This document shows positions 3,538-21,267 of a stretch of DNA of 22,611 nucleotides, piece by piece (positions within the stretch are counted from its first letter, which is position 1; each line of letters starts with the position of its first letter). The stretch is taken from the IMG/VR virus record IMGVR_UViG_3300032294_002594, positions 1 through 22,611 of that record. One strand, written 5' to 3'. The translations under genes and the position numbers were made by a program. The notes beneath the pieces were generated by a model. That model worked only from the letters and a program-made list of their open reading frames with translations. It searched no databases and was not told the DNA's origin. The stretch comes from a virus.

Positions 3538-3825
3538 TTATTTTAATTTCTTCAATACTGGTAAATCCATTCCTATTTTCTCTTTTGTCATTTGTTCATC
3601 TTGCGCATATACTGTACCAATTTCATCTTCGTGAAAGGATATTATTGTAACAGGTAATTTACTTACAGGGTCAGATTCCATTATAAAACCAACTAATACT
3701 TTATCACCAATTTCTATTTTTCTTCCTGAAGAGTATCTTTGATTTGGATTTTTCATAGCTTCTTCCTCAGTCAAAACTATTTTAGTGTTGTTAATCTGAA
3801 ATTGTAAAAATTCTTCTAGTTTCAT
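3538..3825 (-). CDS. Unknown 95-residue protein between gene 32 and uvsX
   Basis: I do not recognise this protein. It is a small mixed-charge protein without cysteine, signal peptide or membrane segment. The N-terminus MKLEEFLQFQ looks helical. Residues 36-72 (KIEIGDKVLVGFI ... VTIISFHEDEIGTVYA) alternate like short beta strands, as in small SH3/OB-like barrels, which is only a pattern impression. The ATG lies 11 bases after the T-run of the gene 32 terminator. Its transcription therefore depends on read-through or on a promoter I could not identify. The uvsX start is six bases beyond its stop, suggesting coupled expression. In T4 the gene 32 neighbourhood encodes the loader gp59 and coactivator gp33, but I see no specific similarity to either. 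Confidence 0.8.
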   Translation of the reverse strand: MKLEEFLQFQINNTKIVLTEEEAMKNPNQRYSSGRKIEIGDKVLVGFIMESDPVSKLPVTIISFHEDEIGTVYAQDEQMTKEKIGMDLPVLKKLK

Positions 3826-3836
3826 GTTTCTAAATT

Positions 3837-3867
3837 AAAAAAATTGTGGGTGGTATTTACCACCCAC
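3837..3867 (-). terminator. Rho-independent terminator of gene 32
   Basis: On the minus strand a near-perfect inverted repeat (GTGGGTGGTA / TACCACCCAC, two bases between the arms, 3846-3867) is followed within two bases by seven T (3843-3837). It begins 11 bases after the gene 32 stop. It should end most gene 32 transcripts and lower read-through into the uvsX run. Confidence 0.9.
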
Positions 3868-3877
3868 TTATTAAGAA

Positions 3878-4720
3878 TTAAAACGGTAGGTCTTCGTCTG
3901 GTTCAGATTCAGCCTGTGGGTCGTTATATTTTTTACTACCACCAATTGAAGTTTCACCTTCAGTACTATCTCCGTAAACGTATTTACCTAATTCAGAGTC
4001 CCATCTTGGAGTTTCTCCTCTTGCAATTGCCTCCAAATAATCAACAGGTTTTTTAGAGTATACGTCATTCCAACCAAGTTCATCATTAACCCACTCATCA
4101 CCTTGTTTTTTATCTTGATGTACAGGAGTTGGGTCATCATACATAATAGTTGATACAGTTGTATATTCTTTACCTTTTGGTGTTTTAGACTTTGTAAGCT
4201 CAATTATTAAGTCTCTTCCCTTTTCAGCATCAGTAATATCTCCTTTAGCTCTCCAAATTGGGATAATCTTATCAAGAATACCTTCGTTTTTATAATTGTG
4301 TTTGAATCTCCAAAACTTTGGTCCATCCTGTTCATTGTCTCTATCAATTACCTTAACGATATAAAATTTACGAGACTTGTATTGCTTTGCCAATTCTTTG
4401 TCTGATTCTTTACCTGTTGACATAAGTTCTTCATAAACCTCATTCAAAGGAGAACGTTCGTTGTCATTTTTTCCTGGGTCGTAGAATTTTTGCCATTTAC
4501 CACCTACTTGTATTTCGTGGTACCAAGCTTCTTTAAATGGTGATGAACCATCCTGTGTTGGTAGGATTCTAATTTTTCTTTGTCCTGAGTTTTCTTTGTC
4601 TCCCAAGATAAGAGCAAAATACTTTTTCATTCTTTCGTCTTGAGACATTTTTCCTTGGGCCCCGCCCCCTGAGATTTTTGATTTTTCGTACTGTGCCAAT
4701 ACGGCGTCTAATGTATTCAT
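3878..4720 (-). CDS. 32: Single-stranded DNA-binding protein, T4 gp32-like
   Basis: This protein coats ssDNA at the fork and organises replication and recombination proteins. Its 280 residues are near T4 gp32 (301). The N-terminal region holds basic residues in a flexible segment (QDERMKKYF at 27-35), followed by an OB-fold-like core with WYHEIQVGGKW at 66-76 and FWRFKHNYKN near residue 135. The C-terminus is acidic and ends DEDLPF, the shape of a partner-recruiting tail. Oddly, the whole protein has no cysteine. Where T4 gp32 has zinc ligands C77, C87 and C90, this protein seems to have F79/Y80, S90 and N93, while H68 could match H64. It has its own promoter just upstream and a strong terminator downstream, fitting high-level expression as a separate unit. 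Identity rests on the core pattern, tail and position beside uvsX. Confidence 0.88.
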   Translation of the reverse strand: MNTLDAVLAQYEKSKISGGGAQGKMSQDERMKKYFALILGDKENSGQRKIRILPTQDGSSPFKEAWYHEIQVGGKWQKFYDPGKNDNERSPLNEVYEELMSTGKESDKELAKQYKSRKFYIVKVIDRDNEQDGPKFWRFKHNYKNEGILDKIIPIWRAKGDITDAEKGRDLIIELTKSKTPKGKEYTTVSTIMYDDPTPVHQDKKQGDEWVNDELGWNDVYSKKPVDYLEAIARGETPRWDSELGKYVYGDSTEGETSIGGSKKYNDPQAESEPDEDLPF

Positions 4721-4737
4721 AATATAAATTTATACAG

Positions 4738-4769
4738 CAAATATAATCTACTTTTATTAATTTGTCAAA
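4738..4769 (-). promoter_or_regulatory. Bacteroidota-type promoter of gene 32
   Basis: On the minus strand TTTG (4769-4766) is followed after 20 bases by TATATTTG (4745-4738). This matches the Bacteroidota primary-sigma consensus TTTG-N17..23-TAnnTTTG. The predicted start lies about 10-15 bases before the gene 32 ATG at 4720. The same stretch can also be read as TTGACA-N17-TATATT, close to the sigma-70 consensus, so it is a good promoter under either model. It sits directly after the terminator of the virion operon. Confidence 0.75.
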
Positions 4770-4771
4770 TT

Positions 4772-4795
4772 AAAAAAGGTCCCGTTGGGGACCTT
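4772..4795 (-). terminator. Rho-independent terminator at the end of the virion operon
   Basis: On the minus strand AAGGTCCC pairs with GGGACCTT around a four-base loop (4795-4776). It is followed by a run of T (4777-4772). It begins four bases after the stop of the 208-residue gene and separates the late virion genes from the gene 32 promoter. Confidence 0.9.
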
Positions 4796-4799
4796 ATGT

Positions 4800-5426
4800 T
4801 TAATATTCAGGATTGTAATGTGGTTGGAAACTATCTTTCATTTCTTTGTCATTCGCATCTGTGACTTGGTCTGATGTGAGGACATAATCATGTTTCCCTG
4901 TTTTTTCCATTTCTTCTTTTTTGTCTTCGAAGAAATCAGAAAGTTTTTGGTTGAACGGATAAGAATCGTATGTTCTTAGTTCTAATTTTTCTTCAGGAGT
5001 CTTTTCTCTGTATTTTTCTATTTTGCTTTCCAAAGAATTTAGTCTATCTAATACAGCATCCATCTGAGATAATTTTTGCTCCAAGCTAGATACTTGAGAA
5101 AATAAAGAATCAAAATATTCTTCTTGTTTCTTTTCAATGTTCTCTTGAGACTTTATAATGTCTGTAACATCTATTTCTTCGGTATTATTCCCTTCTTGAG
5201 ATTCTCCCTCGTCACCGATTTTTTCAACTTCAGTGTCTACATTAACATCAACCTTTTCAGGTGTACCATCAATAGTAGTATTACCCATATCAGAAGGTTG
5301 GTCTCCCATAGCAGGTGCTGGAGGGGCAGGTGCTGTAGGTTCTACTGGTTCTGCTTGTTCATTAATGTAATTATTAATAAAATGATACCTCTCGATTTCA
5401 CTTAATATTTTTCTATCTATTCCCAT
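4800..5426 (-). CDS. Unknown acidic coiled-coil protein (208 residues) at the end of the virion operon
   Basis: I do not recognise the family. The N-terminus has a short amphipathic helix with EIERYHFINNYINEQ at about 10-24. A Pro/Ala-rich linker (about 25-40) and a long acidic low-complexity stretch to about residue 85 follow. Residues 88-145 form a clear coiled coil with heptad-like leucines (FSQVSSLEQKLSQMDAVLDRL), and the tail is charged. It has no cysteine or membrane segment. The start is four bases after the preceding 74-residue gene. Its place in the virion module and its makeup suggest a structural, scaffold-like or head-internal protein, but this is inference. The stop is followed at once by a terminator. 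Confidence 0.82.
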   Translation of the reverse strand: MGIDRKILSEIERYHFINNYINEQAEPVEPTAPAPPAPAMGDQPSDMGNTTIDGTPEKVDVNVDTEVEKIGDEGESQEGNNTEEIDVTDIIKSQENIEKKQEEYFDSLFSQVSSLEQKLSQMDAVLDRLNSLESKIEKYREKTPEEKLELRTYDSYPFNQKLSDFFEDKKEEMEKTGKHDYVLTSDQVTDANDKEMKDSFQPHYNPEY

Positions 5427-5711: not shown

Positions 5712-8700
5712 TTATGTGAAAGTAAAATTATCCGTTGATTCAACTTCACCACCTGTTGTAATTATTTTTATCTTACCACTTACTTTATTTTGTGGGACAA
5801 ATTTAATTTTTGTCTGAGTATTTAAGGTTATTTCTGTTCCTAATCCATTCAAAAGAACAATTGTTTTACCTACCAAGTTTGTACCCGTTAGTGAAATTTC
5901 AGGATTAGTAGAACCATTAATTGTTGCAGTAACAGGGTCAAACTTTGTTATTGTAGGGGGTAAACAAGTTTCTCGAGTGTCATCTTGTGTGCCCAAATTG
6001 TTTTCAGGTTTCGCACCTGCGCTTGTATCTGCCGTTGTTATTATACCACCAACGATTTTATTAATATCTTCTGTTGTCATTTGTTGTATATTCAAACTCG
6101 ACACAGTCGCCAACTTATTCATATCATTTAACGCTTCTTTCATCTTGTCTGCACCATCGTTTACAATTGAACCAGGACTGGATAAGAATATATTATAGGA
6201 CTCTTCAGTCATTCCACTTGAATTGAAAAAACAATAAAAATATTTATTTAGTCCAATTTGTGAAATTCTTTTTTTGTTTTGCTCCATTCTTGAATACAAA
6301 AATTCAAAGTATCTGTAGGTTGAATCAAAGTTTGCAAAAGGTAGAATTTCATTTCCGTCTTGAACACAACAATAAGTTTTATCGAAGAACGACTTGTAGG
6401 TTGGTACATATTCGTATTTCAAATTAATTTTGTTACAGTAATTGTTATTATATCCTATTAACTGTCCATTATCAATTTTAGATGAAATGTACGAATAAAC
6501 ATAAAAAGCTCTTTGTAATACAGGTTCAGCTGAGCCAGTTTTTGCTATCAAAAGAGAATTGATTACTTCAATCATGTTTTGTTTAGTAATCTTTGTAATT
6601 ACACTTGGAATATTGACAAATCCATTCTGTAAATAAATTGGACTTACTAAAGAGTCACAAGCGCCTAAAGTAGAAGATGTATTGTTATTGCTTGGTGAAT
6701 TGTTTACCGCTTTCTGATTATTGGTTGTGGCAATTGATTTTGTTTCTTGTATCTTATTTCTTATTTCACTCTCAATTCTAGTTAGAAGATTTTGATTAAT
6801 ACTTTGAAGGTACTTATCAATTTGAGGTAAATCGAATATACCCTGTCTAACTCCCGTAAATTGTGTTTGGAAAACACCAGGACTTATAGTGTGTTCAACA
6901 TCTGTGATTAAGTATGGTCCATAAAACATTGGAACATTTCTTAAATTGAAATACATCGCTGGTTGAATCATGGCATTTCCCAAAGATTCTACAGTACATG
7001 GATATGTTCTTTGTAAATACAAATTATATAAACTTGTATTCTGAGTTGCAGTTTGAGTACCTGAATTGATATTGATAGTATTCAAGGTTTGTTGAACACT
7101 TTCCGCAGTAGCTTTACCATTATCTTGTGATACTTGAAAAGAATAAAAAACGTTTTGATTTCTAATACCAATATCAACATTAAACCCTACACATCTATTA
7201 GATTTAGCAAAATCAGTCTTATTTTGTAAACTTTCTCGCAATGGCACTTGAGAAGATTTCCCGATGTCGAATCCATCATTCCTGTATCTGAAGTATTTGT
7301 TTTCTGGTAATGCCAAATAATTTGAAGGTTTTCCAACATAGAATCCCACTAATTTTGGTGAACTTTTCCTATAATCAACATTAAGATATGTTCCCCAAAG
7401 ACTGTTAGCAAAGTCTGAACTTCCCTCAGGCGCTCTTGTTGTTACACCGTCAACATCTTGTACGTTATAAAAATTCACGTAAGCAGGTAAGTTCATTACC
7501 GTAAATTTATTTTTCAACATTAAACTCGTGATTAAATCTTGAACCGTTTTAGTATTGTTCTCTTTAGAACTGTCCAACATTGTTTTCAAGTCAAAAATAT
7601 CAACAAGTAAAATGTCACCAATGTTTCTTGAAGCCCTGTCTAAAAATAATATGTCTTCAAAAAGAGTTTTGGACTCAAAGTCATACCCTGCAATCCATTT
7701 ATCATTGAAAGCCTTAAACATTTCATAAATGTTTACTTTTGTTTGTTGACCATCAACTACACTTGATTTAATTGTTTCTGGTACTTGACTTTGATTAAGT
7801 AATTTTTTTCTAACTAAATTCAACACCCCGTTTATAAAAAGGTCTTGAATATCTTTACACGATGCAAAATATTCTTCGAGTTGTCTCTTAACACCCAACA
7901 CAGTACTAGACTTTTGTAGTTTTTGTGTTGCATAAATTTTAATTAACGGTGAAAGTATCTGAATATTTTCAACTGTAAATTTGATATTGTTGTCTATGAA
8001 AAAATCAGTTATATATGAACCGTTGTTTTTATAAACTAATTGTGGTATGGTAGAAAAACCTACTTGTAGTTCCAACTCGAGCCACTCATTTGGATAATTT
8101 GTTTTAGATTGTTGTAAGGTTGTTGTTCCTCCTTCTGAGGGTAAGCTTCCTGTAACGTATGCATCAAATTTAATTGGGTCAACAAAAACTTGTCCAATTC
8201 CTTCAGGATACAAGTAAGAATCAAATATTCTTTTATTATAGTTTGTAGGATTACCATATCTAAAAATGACATCGTATTCCAAAAATGATATTAATTTATT
8301 TTGTATATTATTATATTGAATATTAATTGTATTTTGAAAATACAAATCATTTGGTGTGTTCGAAGAATTGAATGGTACTTTCATCATATCACTGAAGAAA
8401 GCTTGGAAATTTTTGTAAATTGAATTTTCGTCAACTCCATTCGAGTCTATTCCGTTGGTTTGAAATCCTGTTACCAAATCAGTTGCCGGTTTTGAAAAAT
8501 TCAGAAATTCAGTTTCAAATGAATCCAAAATCTTTTTTTCAAAAACAGAAAACAAATCATCAATTTTCATGTAATTGTCTAATTCTGAAAACCTGAAAGG
8601 TGTAAGTTCTTCAGGCTTCATTTTGAATACATTCAGGTATTCATCATAATTTGGTTTTTTAATTTTTTCGGAATCGAAATATCCAAAATTAGGCGCCGCC

Positions 8701-11700
8701 CAAAATAGTCTGACTGAACCGTTGAATACTGAAGGATTACCAGCGAAGGCATATCCCTGTGTCAAAGTCCCCCCATTTACCAAAGCTTGTTCTGCTTCGT
8801 TTAAATATGTACCAAAAGATGGCATCACATACATTTCTTGTATTGAAGTTGTCTCTGTTTTGCAATCCAAAGTTGTTGATGAAAATTCTATGTTTGCAGG
8901 TAAAAGAACTGACCAAGTTTTAACGTTGAACGTATTATTCCCGTTTTGTACATTTGAAATATTCGAAGAAGTAAAATTAAAAATATTTAATCCTCTGTCT
9001 ACAGCCTTTTGTATTTCATTGTCCGTATAATCTTTGAATAAATCATAACCATTATAAAAGACGTTAAAGTCATTAATTGTCTTAGGATAAAATCCTACCT
9101 CAACATTGTTGATTTGGTCAAATCCTGATTGTAATTGTATTTTTTGTTCTTGTCCATTTTTTACGTAACTGTAAGTTTTCGTAACATTTCTTGTTAAAGG
9201 GTCATATCCATCAACAAAATTATAACTACTCCAAACATCCGATAAAATATCTCCCCCTGTCTGTTTGTAGATTTTGTATCTGTGCCAAATAGAACCCATT
9301 TTCAAAATCCAAGCATAAGGTAGTTTGTGTATTGCACCATATTTTTTAAGTGTTGCAAACATGTAATTCAAATCGTCAATTGGATTTTGTAAACCCACTT
9401 CTATGTCAGCGGTGGTTGTCACTGTTGATGTTGATTTGAGTTTTTCTCTGAGACTTATTAGTGGTAATGAATTCAAGAAAAGGTAAGCAGCAGCTTTGAA
9501 TGGGTTTTGATTTGACCTTCTCCAATTATCAACTCCTTTTAATATTGAATTAACAAAGAAGGGTGTATTCAACATAGATGTTGTTGTCACAATTGGTAAT
9601 TGTCTTTGTCCTGCCACGGTCCTTGCTGGCGAGTCTGTAAAAGTATATCCTACTGTAGGAAGGAAGTCTGAGGGGAAAGTCGAGGTATAAAACTCATTAA
9701 TAAGTAATGAACTTGTAACTATTCTGTTTGGATTATTTGAATATAAATAACTAAAATTTGTAACAGGTCTTTTTACTTCGTAGTTGTCCAAATCGTTGAA
9801 ATTTGATATTACATTCCTTTGTTCAAATACTTCTAACACCTCCTTGGTGTCATATCTTTTGTTTGCTTTGTTTTGGTCATACCCCACCAAATTTGTTTCA
9901 CACCATAGGTCATTAACAAATGGATATGTATCCATAATATTCGGTTCCGTATCAGTGTTAATCACAGAAAGTAATTCATCTGTTGTGTTTGGTAAGTTCT
10001 TTTGTGGTTCCGGTCCTAACTCATTAAGTTGTAATAATGAAAAAGAATTATCCGTTAATGTTCTAAGATAAGGTGTGACAAAAAAATCTCTAATGAAATC
10101 TTGCCATGACCTACCTGTCCCTTGGTTAGAAAACCCCCTTAAGGTGTTGAGATAGTTATTGGCGGTAATATCATAATTTTTTAACTTATATGTTAGATAA
10201 GGACTACTAAGACCTATACTTAACTCTATATTTTGACTTTCTAAATCTTGTAAGAGAGTCACCAATGATGTTTTTTTATTTTGAGGTGTTCTACCTAATC
10301 CAGTAAAATATGCCGTAACGAACTGTCTTTCCCAAATCTCATAGAAAAATTTCAGTTCATCTTTGTTTCTATATGCAATATCCAATTGTGGATATTCTAT
10401 TGCATTTATATTGATTAAGTTTGTTTCATTTGAAGTGTTCAAAGGTGGTTGTGATATTGGGGGGTCAAATTTTTGAGTCAATCCTTTTAAGTATTCTTCA
10501 ACAAATTCAACCTCGGGCCATTTGTCATACCTATCTCCCTTTGTTATATCTACCACTGAAGGGTCTCCCAAATATTTCAACTGAAATCTTCCTTCTATAT
10601 CTCTATTACTTTCAACAAAGAACTGCGGCCATGGATAAACAACGTCTCTTGTATTATCTAAAGGGGAACTTGAAATGTTACTTATTCCAACATTCTCTTT
10701 CAAATCTGAACTTTGAACGGAATATTGATTTCCATACACCGTTTTTCTCACAGGGTCATCTCTTAACTGCCAAGCCTTTGAATGGACTTCATCCATTAAC
10801 CTCAAAAACCCTTCCGTAGTTGCCATGATGATTCCAACAATGTTTCTTATTGAAGGTCTAAATCCTATACCTTGTTTTGGGTCTTCAATCTTTTTTGATA
10901 GTTCTGTTGTTATAAATGATTCGTACTCAGCTTGTTTACGGTTCGCGCTAGTTTCCATAACCTGTAGTTTCTGTATGAAACCATCAAAATCAAAAACAGG
11001 TCCAAACACTATAGTTTCTTTCCCACTAGAGTCTACTTCCTTATATCCGGTAAAAAGATTTTTTCTTTGTTGTTTATAATTTTGTATCTCAGGTGAATCA
11101 ACTGATTTTGCAAATATACCCTTTTGTTCCGCACTCTTCAATAAGTCAACATTTGCCGTATCGAAATTTGTTGACACTATCGTATCATATCTGACAGGAT
11201 TTACAATCGGAAACTTTCCTCTTTTTCCCAAAGTTCCAACGTTTGCCAAACTTGCGGTATTATCATTTATAATTTGTTTTAATTCTTCAAGAGCTGTGTT
11301 TTTTTCTGTTACGTTGAAACTATTCTCTTTGAACGTATAAATTTTACTTCCGTTTTTGAGTATTATTGGTGCTGGGTCAACCCATTGTGAAAACCAAGAA
11401 TCTTCCGAAGTTAAAACTTGGTCCACATATTTTTTCAATTCCTCTTTATAATTCCTACAATCTGTTAAAGGTTGTACATCAGCCTCTGTGAAAAGTTTCA
11501 TAATCCTTGTCTCAAAAGTTTGTACAATGTCTATCAATTGGTAGAATGTTATTTCAGGAAAGTCTTTCGGTAATAATCCTTTTGCTTTGTATTCGCTATA
11601 TACCTCAACAATTTTTTCATAACCTTTCTCTGTCACCAAAGAACTAACAATTTGATTATTTGTTGTGGTCGTTGGTTGAGGTTGGTTATTTCCTGTTGCC

Positions 11701-12554
11701 CTTGCATCTCTTTGGAGGTTTTCGGTGGGATTAGAATTGGTGGTTGTATTAAATCTAGTAGAGTACATGTGTGGCGCCGCCAACAAATGTTGCATTTGCA
11801 CTTCATTTAGAATGCCAAATTTGAATCCCTGCAATTCTAAATTTACTTGGTAGTTTCCGCTGAAAGTATTAAATCTTGCATTGAAACTTTTTAAGTTAAG
11901 TTGGTACCTGATGGCCTGTCCGAAATAACCTTTTAGAGTTAAATAAAACGGTGGGTAGGGAAGATTGAAAAATGCTGCATACGGGGATTGGTCACCTAAA
12001 GAAAATAGTGCTCTTCCTTGAACATCCTCCATTGTAATTGAAACAGTTGGTATAAAAGAACTTGTTAGTTTTACTAATATACTTGTTATACCTAGCATCC
12101 CATTATCAACACTTCCATCAATACCATTTGTTTTAATTCCACTTTTATTATAGGATTCTTTACGATTTGGAGATTGAATTGTTGTTTCTGTCTTTTGATT
12201 AGCTCCCATTCCATATTTACCATTCGGGTCAGTGGCTGTAGTATTTCTCCCTGTAAGTTCGTCGTAATAAGTTGTTCCGAAATAGTCTTTCTTGTTAGGT
12301 CCTAAAAAGTTAATTTTGGCAATGGAAACTGTTCTACTAGTGTCTTGTGGACTTCCTCCTACCGCTAGCTTTGTTCTTGGTAAAACTTCAGCTTCGAGAT
12401 TAGCAAACATAACCAAGTTCTCATGGTCGACCAATCTTTCTTTAATATTTCCTTGATAATCGGTGGTCTTGTTTGGGTCGACAATGATTATGTTATCGTA
12501 ATCATACTCAACCAAAATGTTTCCAGAATTATCTGGTTGTAAATTACCTACCAT
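5712..12554 (-). CDS. Giant baseplate hub-like protein (2280 residues) with C-terminal IPT/TIG domain
   Basis: This is probably the central baseplate hub that joins tube and spike, fused to extra modules. Residues about 150-265 (PYAAFFNLPYPPFYLTLKGY, then ARFNTFSGNYQVNLE) resemble hub beta-barrel domains of the gp27/gpD type. Residues about 1840-1905 (FYGPYLITDVEHTISPGVF, then TQFTGVRQG) resemble the segment that closes the hub fold in late-control-D proteins. A Q/P/T/N-rich linker lies near 280-302. Residues about 1965-2090 form a separate, cysteine-containing domain with GYNNNYCNK. The last 84 residues (PPTITKFDPVTATINGS...) look like an IPT/TIG immunoglobulin-like domain. It is far longer than T4 gp27 (391) or gp5 (575). 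The start overlaps the LysM-like gene by 11 bases, indicating coupling. I can support hub-like function only moderately; a mixed hub/wedge role is possible. Confidence 0.72.
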   Translation of the reverse strand: MVGNLQPDNSGNILVEYDYDNIIIVDPNKTTDYQGNIKERLVDHENLVMFANLEAEVLPRTKLAVGGSPQDTSRTVSIAKINFLGPNKKDYFGTTYYDELTGRNTTATDPNGKYGMGANQKTETTIQSPNRKESYNKSGIKTNGIDGSVDNGMLGITSILVKLTSSFIPTVSITMEDVQGRALFSLGDQSPYAAFFNLPYPPFYLTLKGYFGQAIRYQLNLKSFNARFNTFSGNYQVNLELQGFKFGILNEVQMQHLLAAPHMYSTRFNTTTNSNPTENLQRDARATGNNQPQPTTTTNNQIVSSLVTEKGYEKIVEVYSEYKAKGLLPKDFPEITFYQLIDIVQTFETRIMKLFTEADVQPLTDCRNYKEELKKYVDQVLTSEDSWFSQWVDPAPIILKNGSKIYTFKENSFNVTEKNTALEELKQIINDNTASLANVGTLGKRGKFPIVNPVRYDTIVSTNFDTANVDLLKSAEQKGIFAKSVDSPEIQNYKQQRKNLFTGYKEVDSSGKETIVFGPVFDFDGFIQKLQVMETSANRKQAEYESFITTELSKKIEDPKQGIGFRPSIRNIVGIIMATTEGFLRLMDEVHSKAWQLRDDPVRKTVYGNQYSVQSSDLKENVGISNISSSPLDNTRDVVYPWPQFFVESNRDIEGRFQLKYLGDPSVVDITKGDRYDKWPEVEFVEEYLKGLTQKFDPPISQPPLNTSNETNLININAIEYPQLDIAYRNKDELKFFYEIWERQFVTAYFTGLGRTPQNKKTSLVTLLQDLESQNIELSIGLSSPYLTYKLKNYDITANNYLNTLRGFSNQGTGRSWQDFIRDFFVTPYLRTLTDNSFSLLQLNELGPEPQKNLPNTTDELLSVINTDTEPNIMDTYPFVNDLWCETNLVGYDQNKANKRYDTKEVLEVFEQRNVISNFNDLDNYEVKRPVTNFSYLYSNNPNRIVTSSLLINEFYTSTFPSDFLPTVGYTFTDSPARTVAGQRQLPIVTTTSMLNTPFFVNSILKGVDNWRRSNQNPFKAAAYLFLNSLPLISLREKLKSTSTVTTTADIEVGLQNPIDDLNYMFATLKKYGAIHKLPYAWILKMGSIWHRYKIYKQTGGDILSDVWSSYNFVDGYDPLTRNVTKTYSYVKNGQEQKIQLQSGFDQINNVEVGFYPKTINDFNVFYNGYDLFKDYTDNEIQKAVDRGLNIFNFTSSNISNVQNGNNTFNVKTWSVLLPANIEFSSTTLDCKTETTSIQEMYVMPSFGTYLNEAEQALVNGGTLTQGYAFAGNPSVFNGSVRLFWAAPNFGYFDSEKIKKPNYDEYLNVFKMKPEELTPFRFSELDNYMKIDDLFSVFEKKILDSFETEFLNFSKPATDLVTGFQTNGIDSNGVDENSIYKNFQAFFSDMMKVPFNSSNTPNDLYFQNTINIQYNNIQNKLISFLEYDVIFRYGNPTNYNKRIFDSYLYPEGIGQVFVDPIKFDAYVTGSLPSEGGTTTLQQSKTNYPNEWLELELQVGFSTIPQLVYKNNGSYITDFFIDNNIKFTVENIQILSPLIKIYATQKLQKSSTVLGVKRQLEEYFASCKDIQDLFINGVLNLVRKKLLNQSQVPETIKSSVVDGQQTKVNIYEMFKAFNDKWIAGYDFESKTLFEDILFLDRASRNIGDILLVDIFDLKTMLDSSKENNTKTVQDLITSLMLKNKFTVMNLPAYVNFYNVQDVDGVTTRAPEGSSDFANSLWGTYLNVDYRKSSPKLVGFYVGKPSNYLALPENKYFRYRNDGFDIGKSSQVPLRESLQNKTDFAKSNRCVGFNVDIGIRNQNVFYSFQVSQDNGKATAESVQQTLNTININSGTQTATQNTSLYNLYLQRTYPCTVESLGNAMIQPAMYFNLRNVPMFYGPYLITDVEHTISPGVFQTQFTGVRQGIFDLPQIDKYLQSINQNLLTRIESEIRNKIQETKSIATTNNQKAVNNSPSNNNTSSTLGACDSLVSPIYLQNGFVNIPSVITKITKQNMIEVINSLLIAKTGSAEPVLQRAFYVYSYISSKIDNGQLIGYNNNYCNKINLKYEYVPTYKSFFDKTYCCVQDGNEILPFANFDSTYRYFEFLYSRMEQNKKRISQIGLNKYFYCFFNSSGMTEESYNIFLSSPGSIVNDGADKMKEALNDMNKLATVSSLNIQQMTTEDINKIVGGIITTADTSAGAKPENNLGTQDDTRETCLPPTITKFDPVTATINGSTNPEISLTGTNLVGKTIVLLNGLGTEITLNTQTKIKFVPQNKVSGKIKIITTGGEVESTDNFTFT

Positions 12555-12867
12555 AATAATAAAAATAATTTTCTAAAGCACCTTTATAGTCTTGTAATGA
12601 TGTTACTAATGGATATGGAATTGTCAATATCGCACCATCATATATATTTGTTTCCAATCCTCCAAACTCTGGGTTTGCCTGTAATATTAACCAACCAAAA
12701 TAGGGTGTACCATAAAACTCTTGTGAAACTTTATCCAATCTACTTCTTGCAACTTTATAGACATAATTTTTATCAGAAGTTTTTCTTGGAAGGAATACAA
12801 AAGGTACTACGGTCTGCTGACCGTTTATTAAAAAATCATTATATCTGTTATAATATGCAAATGCCAT
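12544..12867 (-). CDS. LysM-like baseplate protein (gp53-like)
   Basis: This 107-residue protein has a LysM-like core at about 35-87: VYKVARSRLDKVSQEFYG, then GWLILQANPE, then YDGAILTIPYP. This is the usual order of a start-up strand, YG, an N-P turn and a final IP strand. LysM folds occur in baseplate parts of contractile tails, such as T4 gp53 and the small LysM protein next to the hub gene in Mu-like phages, where they join proteins rather than bind cell wall. T4 gp53 is longer (196). The ATG overlaps the stop of the 1665-residue gene by one base (TAATG), and its own end overlaps the hub-like gene, so all three are probably translationally coupled. The C-terminal YFYYYGR is aromatic-rich. 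Confidence 0.75.
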   Translation of the reverse strand: MAFAYYNRYNDFLINGQQTVVPFVFLPRKTSDKNYVYKVARSRLDKVSQEFYGTPYFGWLILQANPEFGGLETNIYDGAILTIPYPLVTSLQDYKGALENYFYYYGR

Positions 12868-15800
12868 TAGTTAAGTTTTGATTTACTTATATATATCGAA
12901 CCACTAGGTCCTGATGATGCGTCATTAAATGTTTCAGTATTAGTATTATTATTTGTAGTATTTGCAAGTGAAACAATATAGTTTTGTCGAGCTTCTTTGT
13001 ATGTATCCTCCGAAGTGTTCGGTAAATTTGAATAGGTTAATTTCCTTTCTGTTGTTTTATTGATTGCAGTATAGTTTAGGAAGTTTCTTAATTGTCCTCG
13101 TTCTATACTATCAAGAAAATCTGTTGCAAGTTTGTTTTCTTCCTCAAATCCGGGTTTACAAGTTTTAATCCAATAATCATCGAAAATCTGAGAAAGATTG
13201 GGATTACTGTTTTCCATCAGAGTTGAATTTGATAATACGTTTCCAATTAAAGAATCTTTGAATGATTGATACTTTTTATCGTCAACAATTTCTTGATTGA
13301 ATATCATATATTGATACTTGACAGATGCATCGTTAAAAATTGGATTATTAGAAATGGAAATAAATCCTTCTTGTGCCGAATATTTTTTGTTTACAGGTTG
13401 AACCAACCTATTAACCGTGCTCTTTCCTGTGGATGTTGAAGTAAAATTAGTTTCTTTAGTAGTTTCAATATAATAATTTCTCAAGAATTCTTCGGTTGTA
13501 TTTTTGTCTTGAACCAATACATTAAGACTATTTCCTGTTGTATAATATGCGAATGGTTCCCCTTTTTTATTTTGTAGTCCATCAGTACCTGAAATTAATT
13601 CCGCCAAATCAAATCTTCCAAATGTTATAATTAAAAGTCTTTGTAAATCTTTATAGTACTTTTGTTGCGTAAGGACAACATCCTGAATAATTTTTGATAA
13701 TGAATTTTCAAACCCGTTTTGTTTTGTTGTAACAAGATTGCTGTAGTTTTGTTTTATTTGTCTTAAAACTTTATCTGATAGATTTTTGTTAGTCATCATA
13801 AAACTCAAGTAGGCGTCTGTGTCACTTGATATTTCTATATTATATTGTGTGAAAACACCGACTATATTTTGTTGGTAATCCAAGGGTTTTCCAAAAAAAT
13901 ATTCATTTTCAGAGTTTATTTCAGGAATTCTACCTTTGGTATATCCTCTTCCATAAGACCAAAGTTGTCTGATACCTTCATTGTATTGTGAAAGTACTTC
14001 TCTATTTTTATTAAAAATTGTATTAAAATAAGTTTGAGTTTCATCAACAAATGATGAGATGAAATTTGTATATGACACGTCTCCTGTTGTACCACTTTCT
14101 GAATTCACTGATGTTAAAACTTCACCAATAAAAGAGTCATTATTTTGTCCGTTATTATTTTGTGTTGGATTTGTTGAAGGTTGTTGAGGTATTGCATATA
14201 ATGCTTGAAATTCTTTATCAAGTTGGTCAAGACTAAAATCAGTAACATCCGCTCTGTCATCATACACTTCTGTATTTGCATAGAAGTTAAATGACAAAGC
14301 GTTTTGTATTCTGTCGATAGCCTCTTTAATACCACTTCCTCCAATAAACTTGAACGATAAAGTTACATTTGCAATCATCGGTTGTATACCAATTCCTTCG
14401 GGATTCAAATCCAAATTTTCGTACTGTAATTGTAAACTATCTGGAATTATTTTCGTGTTGAAAAAATCACCAATTCTGAGTACTAAGACTGGAGGTGCCC
14501 CAAACGCAGTATTAACCGCATTATCGTATTGTAAAGTTTCTTTCCCATTTATCGATTTTACAACAGGTATTGTTTCTCCCGGTCTCATACATTGTTGTAA
14601 AAATGTAAGTCTCGAGTTAAGTCCCTCAGGTGTTGTTGAGTGAAATGCTGGATTGAAAAATTTCAATTTATCTTTCAAGTTGTCATAAACCATTGGTGTG
14701 TCTTCCTTAATTGACTCAAAATAATCACACTCTGTCATCAAAAGTCTTAAAACTCTTTTTGAAATATTGTCTCTAAACCCTTTTCTTTCCACAAAAGCGG
14801 TTACTGGTACGGTAGTTTTTGTTATATTTTGAACAAAAGGTTGTTCTTGTTCTGGTGGAACAGAGTTTGCAGATGCTTTAGGTTTTAACTCAATTGATTT
14901 TATTGCAACTCTTCTACAAGCCATTGCATTAACCGTATTAATTCCGTTGTTTACCGCTAGAGAATCTTGTTCTCCACAGTTGTATTTTTCTCCCCACCCA
15001 GTACCCTTCTTAACAGTTACACTACTCTCTCCTTGTGCGTTTTGAGTAAACGAGACGTTAAAATTTGGTATTTTACTTAATACTGATTTAGCACTTAAGT
15101 TAGGAAAATAATTTTTTATATATTCTTGTACAGACCTAACTCTATTATCAGAAAGTTCAATATTATAATTTTGTGAACTTGGTGAAGAAGTTGTACCAAC
15201 CAAATTAAATTCAACAGAAGATATTGTTCCATTAACCGCCAATTCATAAATCTTACTTAATTTTTCATTAATGGAAGAAAAATTTGGTTCAATAACAGTA
15301 TCGAAGAATTGAGACACCGCATCCCCATCACTTACAGGATTTGTCGTAGTAGGTGCATAATTAATAATTTGTTGTTTAGATGCGATATAGGAATTATAAT
15401 AAAAACTATATGGTGAAACTGTAATCCCTAAATTACCACCTGGAACATCATTTTCAAAATAGAAACCGAGACCTTGTATTTCATCTTTCAACCCATCTAA
15501 GTTTAAGTTTGGTGACTGTGCAATGGGCATTGTTGAGTTGTTAGTTGTATTATATCCTGTTTGTAAATTTTTTTTAACCCAATCGACTTGTTCTATTGAC
15601 AATTGACCTTGGTTCAATTCTTGTTGAATTATATATAAATCATTAGGGTTTGCTAATGGATATTTTTTTGCCAACTCGTAAAGGTCATATTTCAAACAAC
15701 CAGCAAAAAATGAATCAATTTTTGAATTTATTTTTTCTCTGTCGTTCTCACTATTCAATACTTTATTAACAATAAGATTCAAAATTGAAGGGTGGTCAAC

Positions 15801-17864
15801 AACAATCTTCCAAGAAAGAGAGCCTGTTCTATTTGTGTTACTGTATGTATAAATTGGTTCGGGTCTACCGATGAAATTAGAGTCTTTCCATGAGGCACTT
15901 GTTGTCTCACTAAATGTTAAACCATACGGTGGAAACCACATCACTCTTCCTTTATTTGGACCCCTTTCACAAATTGGTAAATCCGCCCAAGTAAATCCTG
16001 GTTTACTAGATGTTCTCCAAGCCAAATTTTCTATTGAAAACATATACTTCTTAGCATACCCATCTGTATCTGGATTACCCACAAGATTTGTTGAATCTGC
16101 TGTACTATCTTTCTTGTTAGGATATATGTTCAGATTGTATGTACTATCCAATACGGAAGAATTTATCCTTCTGTTTTGTGTTGTAATTCCATCCGCCTTT
16201 TGTAAATCATTGTATTGTAAATAAGGAAGGTCTTTGGAAAAAACTCTACAGTATTCTGCACCCACTTCAGCGCCTATTGCACCAGTATACTTTAATACTT
16301 TTGAACCTTTAGTGAGTTCTTTATATCCGTCATTAAATACTTTTGATACTTGGTCGATTGCATTACCAACATGTTGTAATCTTCTTCCACCTGATTTTGG
16401 CGCACTATCGATTAATCTTTGTGTATTATCTAAAATCGAATTATCTTTGAACGCAATACCTGTCGAGACTGTTGTATCAAAAGAAGATTGTGATTGGTCG
16501 GTTTCCGAAGCAAACGTTTTTCCACCTGGACCAACTTTCTTACCTGCATTTGCAATTGTACCAGGAGAAATCCAAGTAAGCCCTCCTTCAATTCCACCTC
16601 CATTAATATATGATGCTCCATTTGCCCCTAACCTTACTTCCCTACTCGGTCCTTCATAAAGTTGTGCAAGTTCAGAAGGTCCGTATACGGGACTTTGTTG
16701 TTCTTGTCCAAAACTGTTATTTGGTAAATCACCCGACGGTGAAAAAACTCTTGACGGTTCAGATGTTGTAGAGCCAATATAAAAGTTACTATTGTTTTCG
16801 TCTGTTCCAACTAAAGCACCTAACAATCTATCAAACACACCACGAGAATATCCTGGCTTGTATCTGTTATAATCTAAATTACCGAATAATCTAGATTTTT
16901 GACCTCCACCAGTATTATCTAAAAATAATTGCGAACCTGACCTGTTTGTTCCCAAAAGAGAATTTACAAACTTACCGACCGTACTTCTCCTGAAGGCATT
17001 GTTAAGTTGTTGAATTGTTACAGGTTGTCCTGAATTAATTGATGGGTCAAAATATGAACCTGGTATTGTAGATACTGGAATAATTGTTCCTGCCAGTCTT
17101 AATGCAAAATCAGTTGCTGCAAGTATCGGATTTGCAGGAGTTGTAATCCTATAATTCGGTTCTATGATTGGAACTCTACCTGTCGCTAAACTTAATATAT
17201 CAGTACCACCTCTAACATTAAACGCGTTGATTCTACCAATCGTATTAAGCCTTATTTCCGTAGCAATCCTTTCTTCAAAACCTTTTCTCAATAAGTCAGC
17301 ACCTAATCTAGCAATATATGAGTCTTGACTCAATAATCCATCACTACCTACAGGGTCTCTCGAGAGTAAAATACCTACGTTTCTATAGAACGAAGGAACA
17401 AATTGTAACGGATAGTAAGGTTGACCATTTGGTAGTCTATTTCCGTCTCTAATAACCGTCTCTAAAGAAGAAACCGCTTCCGCACCATCAAAAATGTTTA
17501 TACCATCAGCATAAGCATTTAATGGTCTATATTTTCTAGCTTCTTGTATTCCTTCATCAATTATGTTTGCATCTTGATACCCATACTCACCTTCATTTGA
17601 TTTTGTGTTGAGCAATGCGTTTGGGTCAGGTACTTGTTTGTATCCTCCATCCGCACCATATTGATTAACTTTATATAAATCTTTGGAAAATAATGGTTCG
17701 TCTATTAAAACGTCTGGTGAATCTGTGACCGCATAGTCTGAAATAGGGGCATCATAGTTTATAGGAGGGGTAGTCTTACTCGGTGATTTTGGGTAAGGTA
17801 CTAAGTTCCTAACTATAACTTTCTTCCTAAAACTCTCTGACGTTACTAGTAGTGGACTAGCCAT
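12867..17864 (-). CDS. Large baseplate/tail-tube-cap protein (1665 residues) with embedded OmpA-like domain
   Basis: This is a virion protein, probably linking tube end and hub. Residues about 640-695 (WFPPYGLTFSETTSASW, GRPEPIYTYSNTNRTGSLSW) and about 1130-1205 (IGDFF, LNPEGIGIQPMIANVTLSF, QNALSFNFYANTEVYDDRA) look like tube-like beta domains such as those in T4 gp48/gp54. Between them, residues about 850-993 resemble an OmpA C-terminal domain: VEFNLVGTTSS, YNIELSDNRVRSVQEYI, and CRRVAIKSIEL. The N-terminal 600 residues are Gly/Asn/Ser-rich without a recognised fold. No signal peptide or membrane helix is seen. It follows the tape measure by 36 bases and is coupled to the LysM-like gene by TAATG. 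Its slot matches the adaptor between tape measure and hub in other myoviruses. Exact T4 equivalence is uncertain. Confidence 0.72.
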   Translation of the reverse strand: MASPLLVTSESFRKKVIVRNLVPYPKSPSKTTPPINYDAPISDYAVTDSPDVLIDEPLFSKDLYKVNQYGADGGYKQVPDPNALLNTKSNEGEYGYQDANIIDEGIQEARKYRPLNAYADGINIFDGAEAVSSLETVIRDGNRLPNGQPYYPLQFVPSFYRNVGILLSRDPVGSDGLLSQDSYIARLGADLLRKGFEERIATEIRLNTIGRINAFNVRGGTDILSLATGRVPIIEPNYRITTPANPILAATDFALRLAGTIIPVSTIPGSYFDPSINSGQPVTIQQLNNAFRRSTVGKFVNSLLGTNRSGSQLFLDNTGGGQKSRLFGNLDYNRYKPGYSRGVFDRLLGALVGTDENNSNFYIGSTTSEPSRVFSPSGDLPNNSFGQEQQSPVYGPSELAQLYEGPSREVRLGANGASYINGGGIEGGLTWISPGTIANAGKKVGPGGKTFASETDQSQSSFDTTVSTGIAFKDNSILDNTQRLIDSAPKSGGRRLQHVGNAIDQVSKVFNDGYKELTKGSKVLKYTGAIGAEVGAEYCRVFSKDLPYLQYNDLQKADGITTQNRRINSSVLDSTYNLNIYPNKKDSTADSTNLVGNPDTDGYAKKYMFSIENLAWRTSSKPGFTWADLPICERGPNKGRVMWFPPYGLTFSETTSASWKDSNFIGRPEPIYTYSNTNRTGSLSWKIVVDHPSILNLIVNKVLNSENDREKINSKIDSFFAGCLKYDLYELAKKYPLANPNDLYIIQQELNQGQLSIEQVDWVKKNLQTGYNTTNNSTMPIAQSPNLNLDGLKDEIQGLGFYFENDVPGGNLGITVSPYSFYYNSYIASKQQIINYAPTTTNPVSDGDAVSQFFDTVIEPNFSSINEKLSKIYELAVNGTISSVEFNLVGTTSSPSSQNYNIELSDNRVRSVQEYIKNYFPNLSAKSVLSKIPNFNVSFTQNAQGESSVTVKKGTGWGEKYNCGEQDSLAVNNGINTVNAMACRRVAIKSIELKPKASANSVPPEQEQPFVQNITKTTVPVTAFVERKGFRDNISKRVLRLLMTECDYFESIKEDTPMVYDNLKDKLKFFNPAFHSTTPEGLNSRLTFLQQCMRPGETIPVVKSINGKETLQYDNAVNTAFGAPPVLVLRIGDFFNTKIIPDSLQLQYENLDLNPEGIGIQPMIANVTLSFKFIGGSGIKEAIDRIQNALSFNFYANTEVYDDRADVTDFSLDQLDKEFQALYAIPQQPSTNPTQNNNGQNNDSFIGEVLTSVNSESGTTGDVSYTNFISSFVDETQTYFNTIFNKNREVLSQYNEGIRQLWSYGRGYTKGRIPEINSENEYFFGKPLDYQQNIVGVFTQYNIEISSDTDAYLSFMMTNKNLSDKVLRQIKQNYSNLVTTKQNGFENSLSKIIQDVVLTQQKYYKDLQRLLIITFGRFDLAELISGTDGLQNKKGEPFAYYTTGNSLNVLVQDKNTTEEFLRNYYIETTKETNFTSTSTGKSTVNRLVQPVNKKYSAQEGFISISNNPIFNDASVKYQYMIFNQEIVDDKKYQSFKDSLIGNVLSNSTLMENSNPNLSQIFDDYWIKTCKPGFEEENKLATDFLDSIERGQLRNFLNYTAINKTTERKLTYSNLPNTSEDTYKEARQNYIVSLANTTNNNTNTETFNDASSGPSGSIYISKSKLN

Positions 17865-17900: not shown

Positions 17901-19805
17901 TTATTTCTTTGGCATGTAGTCGCCGTCTACCTTATTAACCCCTTGTTTTATAATTTTGAACAACTCTTCGTCAAATTGAGCAACAAATTTCTTCCTATCC
18001 ACTTCCGGCATATTAGACAACAATTTGACTAATTCTGGACTACCTGTAAGTTCTATTTTTGTTATTTGACCACCAGTTACATTAACATCAATTTTTCTTG
18101 GGGTGAAATCTTGTGATGAAAATTGTCTTCCTTGTATATTATTGGTGTAATATTGTGTAAGCGATTGATTTGATATTTGAGAAATTTGTGATTGGATTCT
18201 ATCAAACTCTCTCGCAGCTCTCCTCATATCTTGTTGTTTCCTCATCAACTCTGGTGTCATTTCTTTTCCGGAAATTCTTGGTTGTGTATCCATAGCCTTT
18301 CCTATCTCACCAGCATATTCTTTAAGTTTTTCTCCGAGCTTAGTCAATTCAGGTAATGCAGCAACACCACTGTCACCACCCATCCCTTTAACTTTATCTA
18401 TTAATTGATTGAACTGGGTTGTTAATTTACCCAATTCCTCCACATTTCCAGTCATAGCACCTTTAGCAAAATCTGAAATACCTTTAACAGCATTTTGAGT
18501 TTCATCTCTAACTTTTTGAGTGTCTGGTGATTTATCTACAAGCGTTTGAGTTACTCCAACACCACCTCTTCTTATTTCTTCCATTAATTTGATTACATCT
18601 GGAGCAGAAGCTGTCCCCAAATACATTCTATCTTTGATTGCTCTCACATCCCCCTTCATTAAATTTTCAGTCTCTAATTGAGCTCTTTGAATATCCTCGA
18701 GGGTTTTGGGTCCACTTTTTTGTAACTCAATTAGAGTTTCCATTTGCTCATTGGATAATTTTTGGAGGTCTACCTCTTCTTTCTTCCCTGTTTCCTTATT
18801 CATAATATCAATCACATACCTTCCATCTGTTTTCATTCTAGCCATATTAGCTAACAACATTTTATCTTCTTCACTTTCAAATTGGAAGTCTGGTTTTATC
18901 ATCCCCATTCTTCGTTGTAAATCAGCGGTATTCAAAGATAATTTCATTAGTTCATCACCAGCTATTCCAGCTTCTCTACCAATTTCTCTGAGCATTAATT
19001 TTCCATATGGAGTTATTTCGAATCTTTTCGTTTTTTCATTGAACTCGGAATATTGTGCTGTCATCTCAACTAAAGCATCTTGGAGACCTTCTGGGTCCAT
19101 AAGTGATTTGTACATCAAGTCAAATGGGTCTGTCAGTGTACCAACAGAAACTCCTAATCTTTGAAATGCACTTGCTAACTCAACGGCCCTCTCTGGTTTC
19201 AAGGCGTCTTCCGCCAAATTGAAAACTTGTTGCATATCAAATTTTAATATCGTTGCCTTTGTTGCCATTCTTGTAAAACCTTCAACACCATTTTGAAAAT
19301 TGAATTTGTTCATGTTACCCATGTACTGAAACACCGTATCCATAACTTGAACTAAATTCGCACCCACGTTTTTAACATATCCTATAGCAGATTCAAGTTC
19401 TGGTCCAATCATCGAAAATTGCACACCTATACCTTGAAAGTCTTCGACCATGGAATCCACTGACCTTCCCAATATTCCGTTTGCCGCTATAAGTTTACTA
19501 ATATCGTCAGTAGAAGCAATTACATTCCTTCTTGTAGCTGTCGCAACCGCCTCAAGCCCTTGAATGGCTTGCTCCATGTTCCCACCAAGTCTATCTACAA
19601 ATGGAGTTGTATCTGCAATTGCAATTTTAACTTCTTCAACTCTTTGTCTAGTAAGTCCGAATAAATAATTAATTCTTCTTGTACCACCTTCAAGCTCTTT
19701 AATTGCTTTATTTACATTACCTAAAATACCCTTCCCTTCTTCGTTGGCAGACGGTGGTTCAGATAATATTTTCCTCAGACTCTCGATAGGATTTAGAATG
19801 TCCAT
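17901..19805 (-). CDS. 29: Tail tape measure protein (gp29-like)
   Basis: This protein would set tail length and occupy the tube lumen before ejection. At 634 residues it is similar to T4 gp29 (590). It is largely helical with long heptad-like stretches: residues about 20-130 (VNKAIKELEG, INYLFGLTRQRVEEVK), 330-420, and 470-560 (MRRAAREFDRIQSQISQISN). A hydrophobic central segment lies at about 127-165 (IGVQFSMIGPELESAIGYV). The C-terminal 70 residues change to beta-like character (KIDVNVTGGQITKIELTGS), perhaps the part that contacts the baseplate. There is no enzymatic domain. It starts 18 bases after the small overlapping ORF, with an A/T leader and no Shine-Dalgarno. Assignment rests on composition, length and its place between tube/chaperone genes and baseplate genes, not on a diagnostic motif. 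Confidence 0.8.
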   Translation of the reverse strand: MDILNPIESLRKILSEPPSANEEGKGILGNVNKAIKELEGGTRRINYLFGLTRQRVEEVKIAIADTTPFVDRLGGNMEQAIQGLEAVATATRRNVIASTDDISKLIAANGILGRSVDSMVEDFQGIGVQFSMIGPELESAIGYVKNVGANLVQVMDTVFQYMGNMNKFNFQNGVEGFTRMATKATILKFDMQQVFNLAEDALKPERAVELASAFQRLGVSVGTLTDPFDLMYKSLMDPEGLQDALVEMTAQYSEFNEKTKRFEITPYGKLMLREIGREAGIAGDELMKLSLNTADLQRRMGMIKPDFQFESEEDKMLLANMARMKTDGRYVIDIMNKETGKKEEVDLQKLSNEQMETLIELQKSGPKTLEDIQRAQLETENLMKGDVRAIKDRMYLGTASAPDVIKLMEEIRRGGVGVTQTLVDKSPDTQKVRDETQNAVKGISDFAKGAMTGNVEELGKLTTQFNQLIDKVKGMGGDSGVAALPELTKLGEKLKEYAGEIGKAMDTQPRISGKEMTPELMRKQQDMRRAAREFDRIQSQISQISNQSLTQYYTNNIQGRQFSSQDFTPRKIDVNVTGGQITKIELTGSPELVKLLSNMPEVDRKKFVAQFDEELFKIIKQGVNKVDGDYMPKK

Positions 19806-19823
19806 AAAAATAAATAGAACATA

Positions 19824-20003
19824 TTATGTTTTGTTATGTTCCTCAATCCATTTATCTAAGAGATATTTTCTAACAAAAATAGGCATAGTTTGAAAGTCTT
19901 GCCATGAAATTTTCAAGAGTGTAGAAAGATAATAAAACTCGTCAAGTTGTCCTACTCTATAATCAGAAGAAAGGGCGAAAGAAATCAACCCCAAAACCCA
20001 CAT
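19824..20003 (-). CDS. Small overlapping ORF (59 residues) in the tail-chaperone slot; possible frameshift extension
   Basis: This frame is +1 relative to the gp26-like gene and overlaps its last 41 bases. It runs from ATG 20003 to TAA 19824 and encodes MWVLGLISFALSSDYRVGQL, then DEFYYLSTLLKISWQDFQTM, then PIFVRKYLLDKWIEEHNKT. It fills the otherwise empty gap before the tape measure and stops 18 bases short of it. The pattern of aromatic helix, W-x2-(I/F)-x-x-MPI, R and K-W-I-E near the end is what I associate with the second, short tail-assembly chaperone of many tailed phages. It may start at its own ATG or be made by frameshifting from the upstream gene. GGGG at 19989-19992 lies in phase as GGG GTT, where glycyl-tRNA could slip +1 without mismatch. 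The +1 frame is open back to a stop near 20047. Confidence 0.7.
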   Translation of the reverse strand: MWVLGLISFALSSDYRVGQLDEFYYLSTLLKISWQDFQTMPIFVRKYLLDKWIEEHNKT

Positions 20004-20706
20004 TGATTGTAAGTTTTTCTCCTGATGGGGCTGTGATTGTTTTTCTTAAATCGATTCTGGGAACATTTTCATCCAAGAAACTTTTTATTAATTTAGAGTC
20101 AGAGATTGGTAGTTGTTCAATAAATTTTGCAATGTAACCTTTGTCGGTATTTCCTCCAACGTCTACTATTTGTTTTTGGAGTCTTGTTGTAACTGTAGGT
20201 GCAACTCTACCTTGTGGATAACTGTCAACAATTCTGTTAATTTCACTACTATCGCCCAAGGTTAAAGGTTTAACTTTAATATTTACCTTACTCTTTGGTA
20301 ATTCCAAAGAAAAAGTACCGTCATGATTTGGCTCTTGACCTTTTATGATTGGTAATTCATCTAATCGAACAGTTGCTTTGAATTGTTTGCTCGTTTTAGG
20401 GTCGGTTGCATTTAAGGTAATTTCAGGACCGAATGAACTATTTCTTAAGAAAATCAATATCGCTTCAACATCACCCTCCAAAAGTTCTTCAACTTTCATG
20501 TCAGGTTCATATAACTTATTTCTGATAAGATTCAATGTTAAATTTTCAGAACCACCCATGATTATATTCTCATCAACAGCAGTCAAATATCCTACTTTTA
20601 CAGACTTTTTTTTGTTTTTATAAAAAGAACCCTCTGAAGGTAGAGGTACTACATCATGTGGTAATGTAAGATTTTCTTGTCCGTATTGTCTTGATTGTTC
20701 ATCCAT
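19963..20706 (-). CDS. 26: gp26-like baseplate hub / tail assembly protein
   Basis: The protein has 247 residues (T4 gp26 has 208). The N-terminal VVPLPSEGSFYKNKKKSV (19-36) is the LPSxGxFY pattern of the T4 gp26 baseplate family. The segment after it (YLTAVDENIIM, NLTLNLIRNKL, EGDVEAILIFLR) resembles the helical part common to gp26 and tail-assembly chaperones. Residues about 95-155 form a beta-rich insert (ITLNATDPKTSKQFKATVRL). The end VGFGVDFFRPFF matches the FFWP-type ending I associate with the family. Its place between tube and tape measure is the chaperone position of other myoviruses. The ATG at 20706 lies directly after the T-run of the tube-gene terminator. The end is overlapped by the 59-residue ORF in another frame. 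Confidence 0.75.
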   Translation of the reverse strand: MDEQSRQYGQENLTLPHDVVPLPSEGSFYKNKKKSVKVGYLTAVDENIIMGGSENLTLNLIRNKLYEPDMKVEELLEGDVEAILIFLRNSSFGPEITLNATDPKTSKQFKATVRLDELPIIKGQEPNHDGTFSLELPKSKVNIKVKPLTLGDSSEINRIVDSYPQGRVAPTVTTRLQKQIVDVGGNTDKGYIAKFIEQLPISDSKLIKSFLDENVPRIDLRKTITAPSGEKLTINVGFGVDFFRPFF

Positions 20707-20778: not shown

Positions 20779-21267
20779 TTAGTAAACTAATACACAACGG
20801 TCCATTCTCATCGTAGCCGTAATAGTTGCCAAAGCATCTTGGTTATATGCTAGAGAATTGAAGTTTACGTCTGTTAGGAATGTTCCGTACAGAATCCACT
20901 TTTCTACAACAACTCCTGTTGGGTCTAACATTTCCAAGTCCACATCTTTTTTGTAACCCGCAGCATAACCCATACGACCTGTTACAGATTCTGCATGTAA
21001 ACGAACCCACTCCATCAACGCTTGTGATGCTGAAGGACCAATTGGGTCTCTGAAAGTTACGTTAAGTGTTTGCCAGTTAAATCTTCCAGCAACCCATACT
21101 GATGTATTAAGAAACGGAATTTCAGTAGCACCGATTTGTATATGTGGTCTAGCAGTACTTTCTACAAACCATTCATTAATACCCAAACTTGAAGGAAACC
21201 TCAAGATGAAACGGTTTTGACGTTTCGGTTCGTAGGGTATTGGCATTTTCATTAGTAAGTCAGCCAT
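20779..21267 (-). CDS. 19: Tail tube protein (gp19)
   Basis: This is the major inner-tube subunit of the contractile tail. Its 162 residues match T4 gp19 (163). The recognisable pattern includes FILRFPSSLGINEWFVESTA at 21-40, LNVTFRDPIGPSASQALMEW at 68-87, RLHAESVTGRMGYAAGYKKD at 89-108, and LEMLDPTGVVVEKW at 110-123. It has a single cysteine near the C-terminus (MRMDRCVLVY). The gene has its own leader of 93 bases with a host-like -7 box (21319-21326) and is followed by a strong terminator. Expression as a separate abundant transcript is therefore likely, as expected for a protein needed in many copies per tail. There is no Shine-Dalgarno; the leader is AAAAAAATTTTATC. Confidence 0.94.
   Translation of the reverse strand: MADLLMKMPIPYEPKRQNRFILRFPSSLGINEWFVESTARPHIQIGATEIPFLNTSVWVAGRFNWQTLNVTFRDPIGPSASQALMEWVRLHAESVTGRMGYAAGYKKDVDLEMLDPTGVVVEKWILYGTFLTDVNFNSLAYNQDALATITATMRMDRCVLVY

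Follow-up and report, generated by a model that had tools for sequence, protein, structure and literature searches.

The question raised by this locus is whether an open frame that overlaps the end of a gp26-like phage gene is translated and, if so, how ribosomes enter it. The window, by which we mean the whole 22,611-base stretch analysed, is an IMG/VR contig fragment in which a gp19-like tube gene is followed by the gp26-like gene, the second frame, a tape-measure-like gene and baseplate genes (Table 1). The initial annotation had called the first overlapping gene gp26-like, and we confirmed this: the ORF matches PF12322 (E 4e-10; 40.1 bits, above the curated cut-off of 24.5) and phrog_150 'baseplate hub' (E 6.5e-14). 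It had also described a hidden chaperone-type frame of 59 codons filling the slot before the tape measure. This frame lies exactly where it was placed, on the minus strand from ATG 20003 to TAA 19824, +1 relative to the gp26-like ORF, and a search with the window as query found relatives of it in 377 IMG/VR viral stretches, with further ones found through other queries. As for the neighbors, PF06841 matches the tube gene (20779-21267) at E 4.8e-5, under the family cut-off, and phrog_58 'tail length tape measure protein' matches the downstream ORF (17901-19805) at an E of only 0.022; the identification of the latter as a tape measure is weak and rests mainly on its position. The gp26-like gene therefore sits between a tail tube gene and a weakly assigned tape measure gene, the placement expected of TAC-N/TAC-NC, the short and the fused, long tail-assembly chaperones.

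Table 1. Positions in the window of the genes, candidate slip codons and RNA elements discussed in the text.
Feature	Position	Strand	Basis
gp19-like tail tube gene, directly upstream	20779..21267	-	phrog_4542 'tail tube protein' 1e-22
gp26-like gene, predicted short tail-assembly chaperone (TAC-N), 247 aa, C-terminal end VGFGVDFFRPFF, then stop	19963..20706	-	PF12322, phrog_150, predicted fold
Conserved RNA hairpin 5' of the slip site	19986..20033	-	Folding, consensus fold, compensatory changes
Hairpin, outer arms	20033-20026 / 19993-19986
Hairpin, 9-nt bulge with AGGAG	20025-20017
Hairpin, inner stem	20016-20008 / 20002-19994
ATG once proposed as internal start, at the hairpin loop	20001..20003	-	Kept in 96/150 distinct sequences
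GGGG, slip site in the initial annotation, here the hairpin 3' arm	19989..19992	-	Folding; TAG directly after it in six relatives
Preferred candidate +1 slip site TTC_TTT_C; P-site UUU (19980-19978) would re-pair as UUC (19979-19977)	19977..19983	-	UUU 150/150; UUU-C depletion
Alternative candidate +1 slip codon CCT (CCU to CUU)	19972..19974	-	CCT 150/150; CCU also in Mel-JY01, LR756508 and immuto
+1-frame extension, T-like domain ALSSDYRVGQLDEFYYLSTLLKISWQDFQTMPIFVRKYLLDKWIEEHNKT, predicted to be translated only as a gp26 fusion (TAC-NC)	19824..19976	-	pN/pS, absence of stops, profile match
TGA stop of gp26, beyond which the shift cannot lie	19963..19965	-	Stop here in 140/150 distinct sequences
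Tape-measure-like gene, directly downstream	17901..19805	-	phrog_788 'tail protein' 1.5e-5; position

We compared 341 loci, which reduce to 150 distinct sequences and to 58 representatives under 90% identity. Alignment positions are counted from the C of CCT at 19974, taken as position 0, such that the window coordinate equals 19974 minus the position. Downstream of the gp26 end, pooled pN/pS was 0.28-0.36 in the +1 frame versus 1.2 in the gp26 frame. Stops that would break the second frame in related phages had been named as the thing to look for, and the downstream +1 frame contains none in any of the 150 distinct sequences. Within gp26, the gp26 frame had a pooled pN/pS of 0.35 in its body and 0.23 in its last ten codons; across those same ten codons the +1 frame stood at 2.33 and is therefore unselected there, and upstream of the gp26 end it only mirrors the silent changes of gp26. 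The switch of selection from one frame to the other sits at CCT TTC TTC, and the conserved part of the second frame begins at ~19973 (LSSDYR...), not at the ATG. Upstream, the +1 frame is closed off by a stop at ~20048-20046 and is thus open from ~20045; the figure given before was ~20047. To judge from these substitution patterns, the 59-codon frame is a genuine coding sequence, under purifying selection only past the gp26 end; the selection anticipated for it is present in that downstream part and absent upstream, including the codons that follow the ATG.

Two routes into this frame had been put forward: a +1 slip from gp26 at GGG GTT, on the GGGG at 19989-19992, or initiation at the internal ATG. 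Nine of the distinct sequences bear on both. In six of these relatives the +1 frame has a TAG directly after GGGG and the domain is retained; three more have a +1-frame TAG further up; and in none of the nine does the open +1 frame offer an ATG, GTG or TTG ahead of its conserved part. Because these TAG-bearing relatives lack a start and yet keep the domain, the ATG and the GGGG slip are both unworkable in them, and the frame has to change between ~19986 and the gp26 stop. Read from the alignment, the +1 frame change must fall in gp26's last codons, TTC TTT CGC CCT TTC TTC TGA (19983-19963). The idea that gp26 is joined to the second frame by +1 frameshifting thus stands, direction included; the proposed site falls, as does the internal ATG. 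A stop next to the site appears dispensable for the shift, since ten of the 150 distinct sequences have GGA in place of the gp26 stop and terminate two codons further on.

A separate overlapping gene, with ATG 20003 or an in-frame TTG as its start codon, is highly improbable and, through the TAG-bearing relatives, already close to refuted. The window and 96 of the 150 distinct sequences do have the ATG, with an AGGAG 15 nt upstream of it. However, the other 54 have AGA, ACG, ATA, AAG or CGA instead, others carry a TAG between the ATG and the domain, nine offer no start codon at all, the +1 frame is unselected before the gp26 end, and the ATG is unconserved and buried in a stable hairpin (-17.9 kcal/mol). 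The AGGAG is also an unlikely start signal given that a Shine-Dalgarno motif is lacking in each of 14 other genes of the window; their leaders are AT-rich, and the host may not rely on such motifs. We give next to no credence to a frameshift at GGG_G (19992-19989). The GGGG is invariant (150/150) and +1 re-pairing on it is allowed, but it pairs with an equally invariant CCCC, and the TAG directly after it refutes the slip for the six relatives that carry it.

Which of gp26's last codons slips is a narrower choice. At positions -9, -6, -3 and 0 the window reads TTC TTT CGC CCT, and the block TTT CGN CCT TTC TTY is close to invariant across relatives. We favor the UUU at -6, which is fixed in 150/150 despite the synonymous codon UUC; the Phe codon before it (-9) varies. 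At UUU-C, re-pairing of tRNA-Phe after a +1 step would be perfect. Elsewhere in gp26, UUU-C occurs in frame less often than expected (45 versus 164), a depletion that is only partly specific, being in part an amino-acid effect, because UUC-C is depleted too.

The same +1 shift could instead occur at CCU (19974-19972), with tRNA-Pro moving from CCU to CUU and the fusion reading FFRP-SSDYR rather than FF-ALSSDYR. We consider this unlikely, though a serious contender. CCT is likewise invariant (150/150), CCU is found at the same spot in phages Mel-JY01, LR756508 and immuto and CCC in the Streptococcus phage, and a +1 shift at a proline codon is known in Listeria phage PSA (PMC5009743). The invariance of CCT is nevertheless explained by dual coding, since its third base also serves, in the +1 frame, as the middle base of the Leu codon. 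In addition, CCU to CUU needs G-U and U-U contacts whereas UUU to UUC is perfect, the GCC of SP-15 and the ACC of LIS04 at this spot would mispair, and in-frame CCU-U is not avoided elsewhere in gp26 (190 versus 151 expected). With CCU-U as invariant as UUU-C, we favor UUU_C over CCU_U only moderately. It is very improbable that the same frame is entered through a -2 shift or because RNA polymerase slips on the T run. Many relatives do have TTTTTT at the site, but the run is interrupted by TTC TTT in 13 of the 150 distinct sequences and in the window, with no homopolymer of more than four left there; in all of these a -2 shift would mispair because the codon before UUU is TTC.

Upstream of the favored UUU_C, the RNA between 20033 and 19986 folds into a hairpin of -17.9 kcal/mol (z -3.1). 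Its outer stem is formed by CCCC (-56 to -53) and GGGG (-18 to -15), both invariant in 150/150 including third codon positions. Aligning homologous loci, as had been suggested, therefore did find the GGGG kept throughout, but as a hairpin arm. The consensus fold of 58 sequences scored -8.2, versus -0.6 for synonymous redraws and 0 for gp26 control windows. In the inner stem, one pair with six compensatory double changes on the tree exceeds all 1629 background pairs; the covariation support comes mostly from this pair, as the other pairs show few independent changes, and the outer stem varies too little to covary. The bulge contains a near-invariant UCAGGAGA. The consensus fold of the region after the slip site was empty of any downstream stimulatory structure, an Rfam search gave no meaningful match, and the upstream hairpin is not evident in the seven more distant +1 relatives named below. 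In a 161-nt fold, the near-invariant bulge UCAGGAGAA (20025-20017) pairs over 9 nt with UUCUUCUGA (19971-19963, the gp26 end), and the hairpin may have a second fold. As a functional element we rejected this pairing, because the slip region is inside the ribosome during the shift and both arms hardly vary.

In every non-T4 gp26-family gene examined, the family FF motif at the gene's end is immediately followed by a second open frame. The frame is +1 in Microcystis phage Mel-JY01, uncultured LR756508, Streptococcus phage GXN1, Flavobacterium phage immuto, Rhodothermus phage RM378, Bacillus phage SP-15 and Listeria phage LIS04. It is -1 in XacN1, Atu_ph07, PA5oct, 121Q, GAP32, RaK2, RAS14, Phosso, Vibrio phage 2.275.O, XaC1, Serratia phage BF, a cyanophage (C48C1) and uncultured LR756511; these jumbo phage and cyanophage gp26 genes end at or near U_UUU_UUY, with the -1 frame open. 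In RM378, the gp26-like pair is followed directly by a tail tube gene on the other strand (2352-2858 of its stretch). For the ORFs annotated after gp26, a late ATG is often chosen as start, so that the first part of the domain is lost; one such ORF, in C48C1, is the 34-aa 'baseplate hub assembly catalyst'.

A profile of the +1 group extensions matched the -1 extensions plus the T4 gp51 C-terminus at E ~1e-7. Against T4 gp51 alone the match was weak (E 0.31), the gp26 profile of the window's clade gave no alignment with T4 gp51 alone, and no phrog matched the +1 extension directly. T4 gp26 and gp51 (3803-5229 of the T4 stretch) are paralogues that both belong to PF12322, gp51 having an extra C-terminal domain, and phrog_634 matches both the C-terminal part of T4 gp51 and the cyanophage -1 extension. 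T4 thus has one gene for the short form and another for the long.

We predicted the structure of gp26 in its own frame only, using AlphaFold2 (pLDDT 83). The predicted fold matches the SP-15 'baseplate hub' and models of the gp26 family from other phages in BFVD. The best solved structure was the HK97 tail assembly chaperone (PDB 2ob9), with Z 5.0 over 87/104 residues at 9% identity (next row Z 2.6), a Z value within reach of unrelated folds; Foldseek gave E 1.1 and a probability of 0.66 for the HK97-type comparison. This modelled likeness agrees with a chaperone role and is no proof of it. A sequence search of the PDB returned a single weak match, to an unrelated protein.

The purifying selection on the second frame, the stretch to which the frame change is confined, the start-less relatives, the profile-level matches of both parts to gp26/gp51 families, the gene order and the conservation of the hairpin together point to frameshifting. 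From them we infer a shift in translation, its exact codon, a part for the hairpin and a chaperone function. Very probably, the locus encodes one chaperone in two lengths, a short TAC-N and a fused TAC-NC made through a +1 shift, most likely at UUU_C. Most ribosomes would stop at the TGA (19965-19963) and release the 247-aa gp26-like short form. A minority would shift +1 in the last codons, most likely by tRNA-Phe sliding from UUU (19980-19978) to UUC, and would read on to TAA 19824, yielding a fusion with a 50-residue C-terminal domain. Because the hairpin lies just upstream of the slip site, it is expected to refold in part behind the ribosome at the moment of the shift, which could draw the mRNA back through the exit channel and so favor a forward shift. 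Were the roles those of lambda gpG/gpGT, the short form would cover the tape measure protein, and bringing in tail tube subunits would fall to the fusion.

Systems of this kind are already known: a 2022 paper, according to those that cite it, reported frameshifting in the chaperone genes of T4-like phages. PRFect (PMC10885494) cites Vladimirov, Gautam and Davidson (2022, Virology 566:9-15) for T4-like phages that have short and fused long chaperone genes instead of frameshifting, and PMC12846349 cites the same work for poly-T slippery signals in T4-like TAC-N genes. Our locus shares with these a PF12322 short form, a putatively gp51-like C-terminal extension, a place next to the tape measure gene and, with some groups, a predicted frameshift at the gene end. 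It differs in that T4 has two separate genes and other T4-like groups, as so cited, a poly-T motif and a -1 shift, whereas here the extension is +1 and a hairpin lies upstream. To judge by the literature searched, this clade stands apart in its predicted +1 shift, its slip site and the hairpin that precedes it. Lambda gpG/gpGT likewise makes a short and a long chaperone by low-level frameshifting in the order tube, G, T, tape measure; it uses a -1 shift and another slip site, and the likeness is one of arrangement. Among phage structural or tail-chaperone genes, +1 frameshifting occurs in Listeria phage PSA, where the slip codon is for proline, has a stop or a pseudoknot after it and lies in different genes, and HSTV-2 G-T is mentioned only as very likely +1 (both PMC5009743).

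For T4 gene 60 bypassing, it has been proposed that a 5' stem loop folding behind the ribosome draws the mRNA forward (PMC5009743). A stem loop proposed to drive forward movement is also what the hairpin here resembles, in position only; gene 60 involves a 50-nt bypass between matched GGA codons, and our locus a single-base shift. We suggest, only tentatively, that a +1 shift on UUU_C, driven by a refolding 5' hairpin as a one-base relative of the gene 60 'motor', replaced a -1 poly-U shift in one gp26 branch, and that the same protein pair is thus made via +1, -1 or two genes. The gp26 family would then be a natural experiment in making one protein pair by +1 shift, -1 shift or gene duplication, and a conserved hairpin 5' of a forward shift would be a simpler, testable counterpart of the gene 60 bypass. 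A large uncultured phage group would gain its missing long tail chaperone, which would also account for the truncated 'hypothetical' or 'baseplate hub assembly catalyst' ORFs that gene finders place at this spot.

Two long reading frames lie further along the tail region of the window. Between the tape measure and a gp25-like gene, a 1665-aa protein (12867-17864) had no PHROG match, and a 2280-aa ORF occupies 5712-12554.
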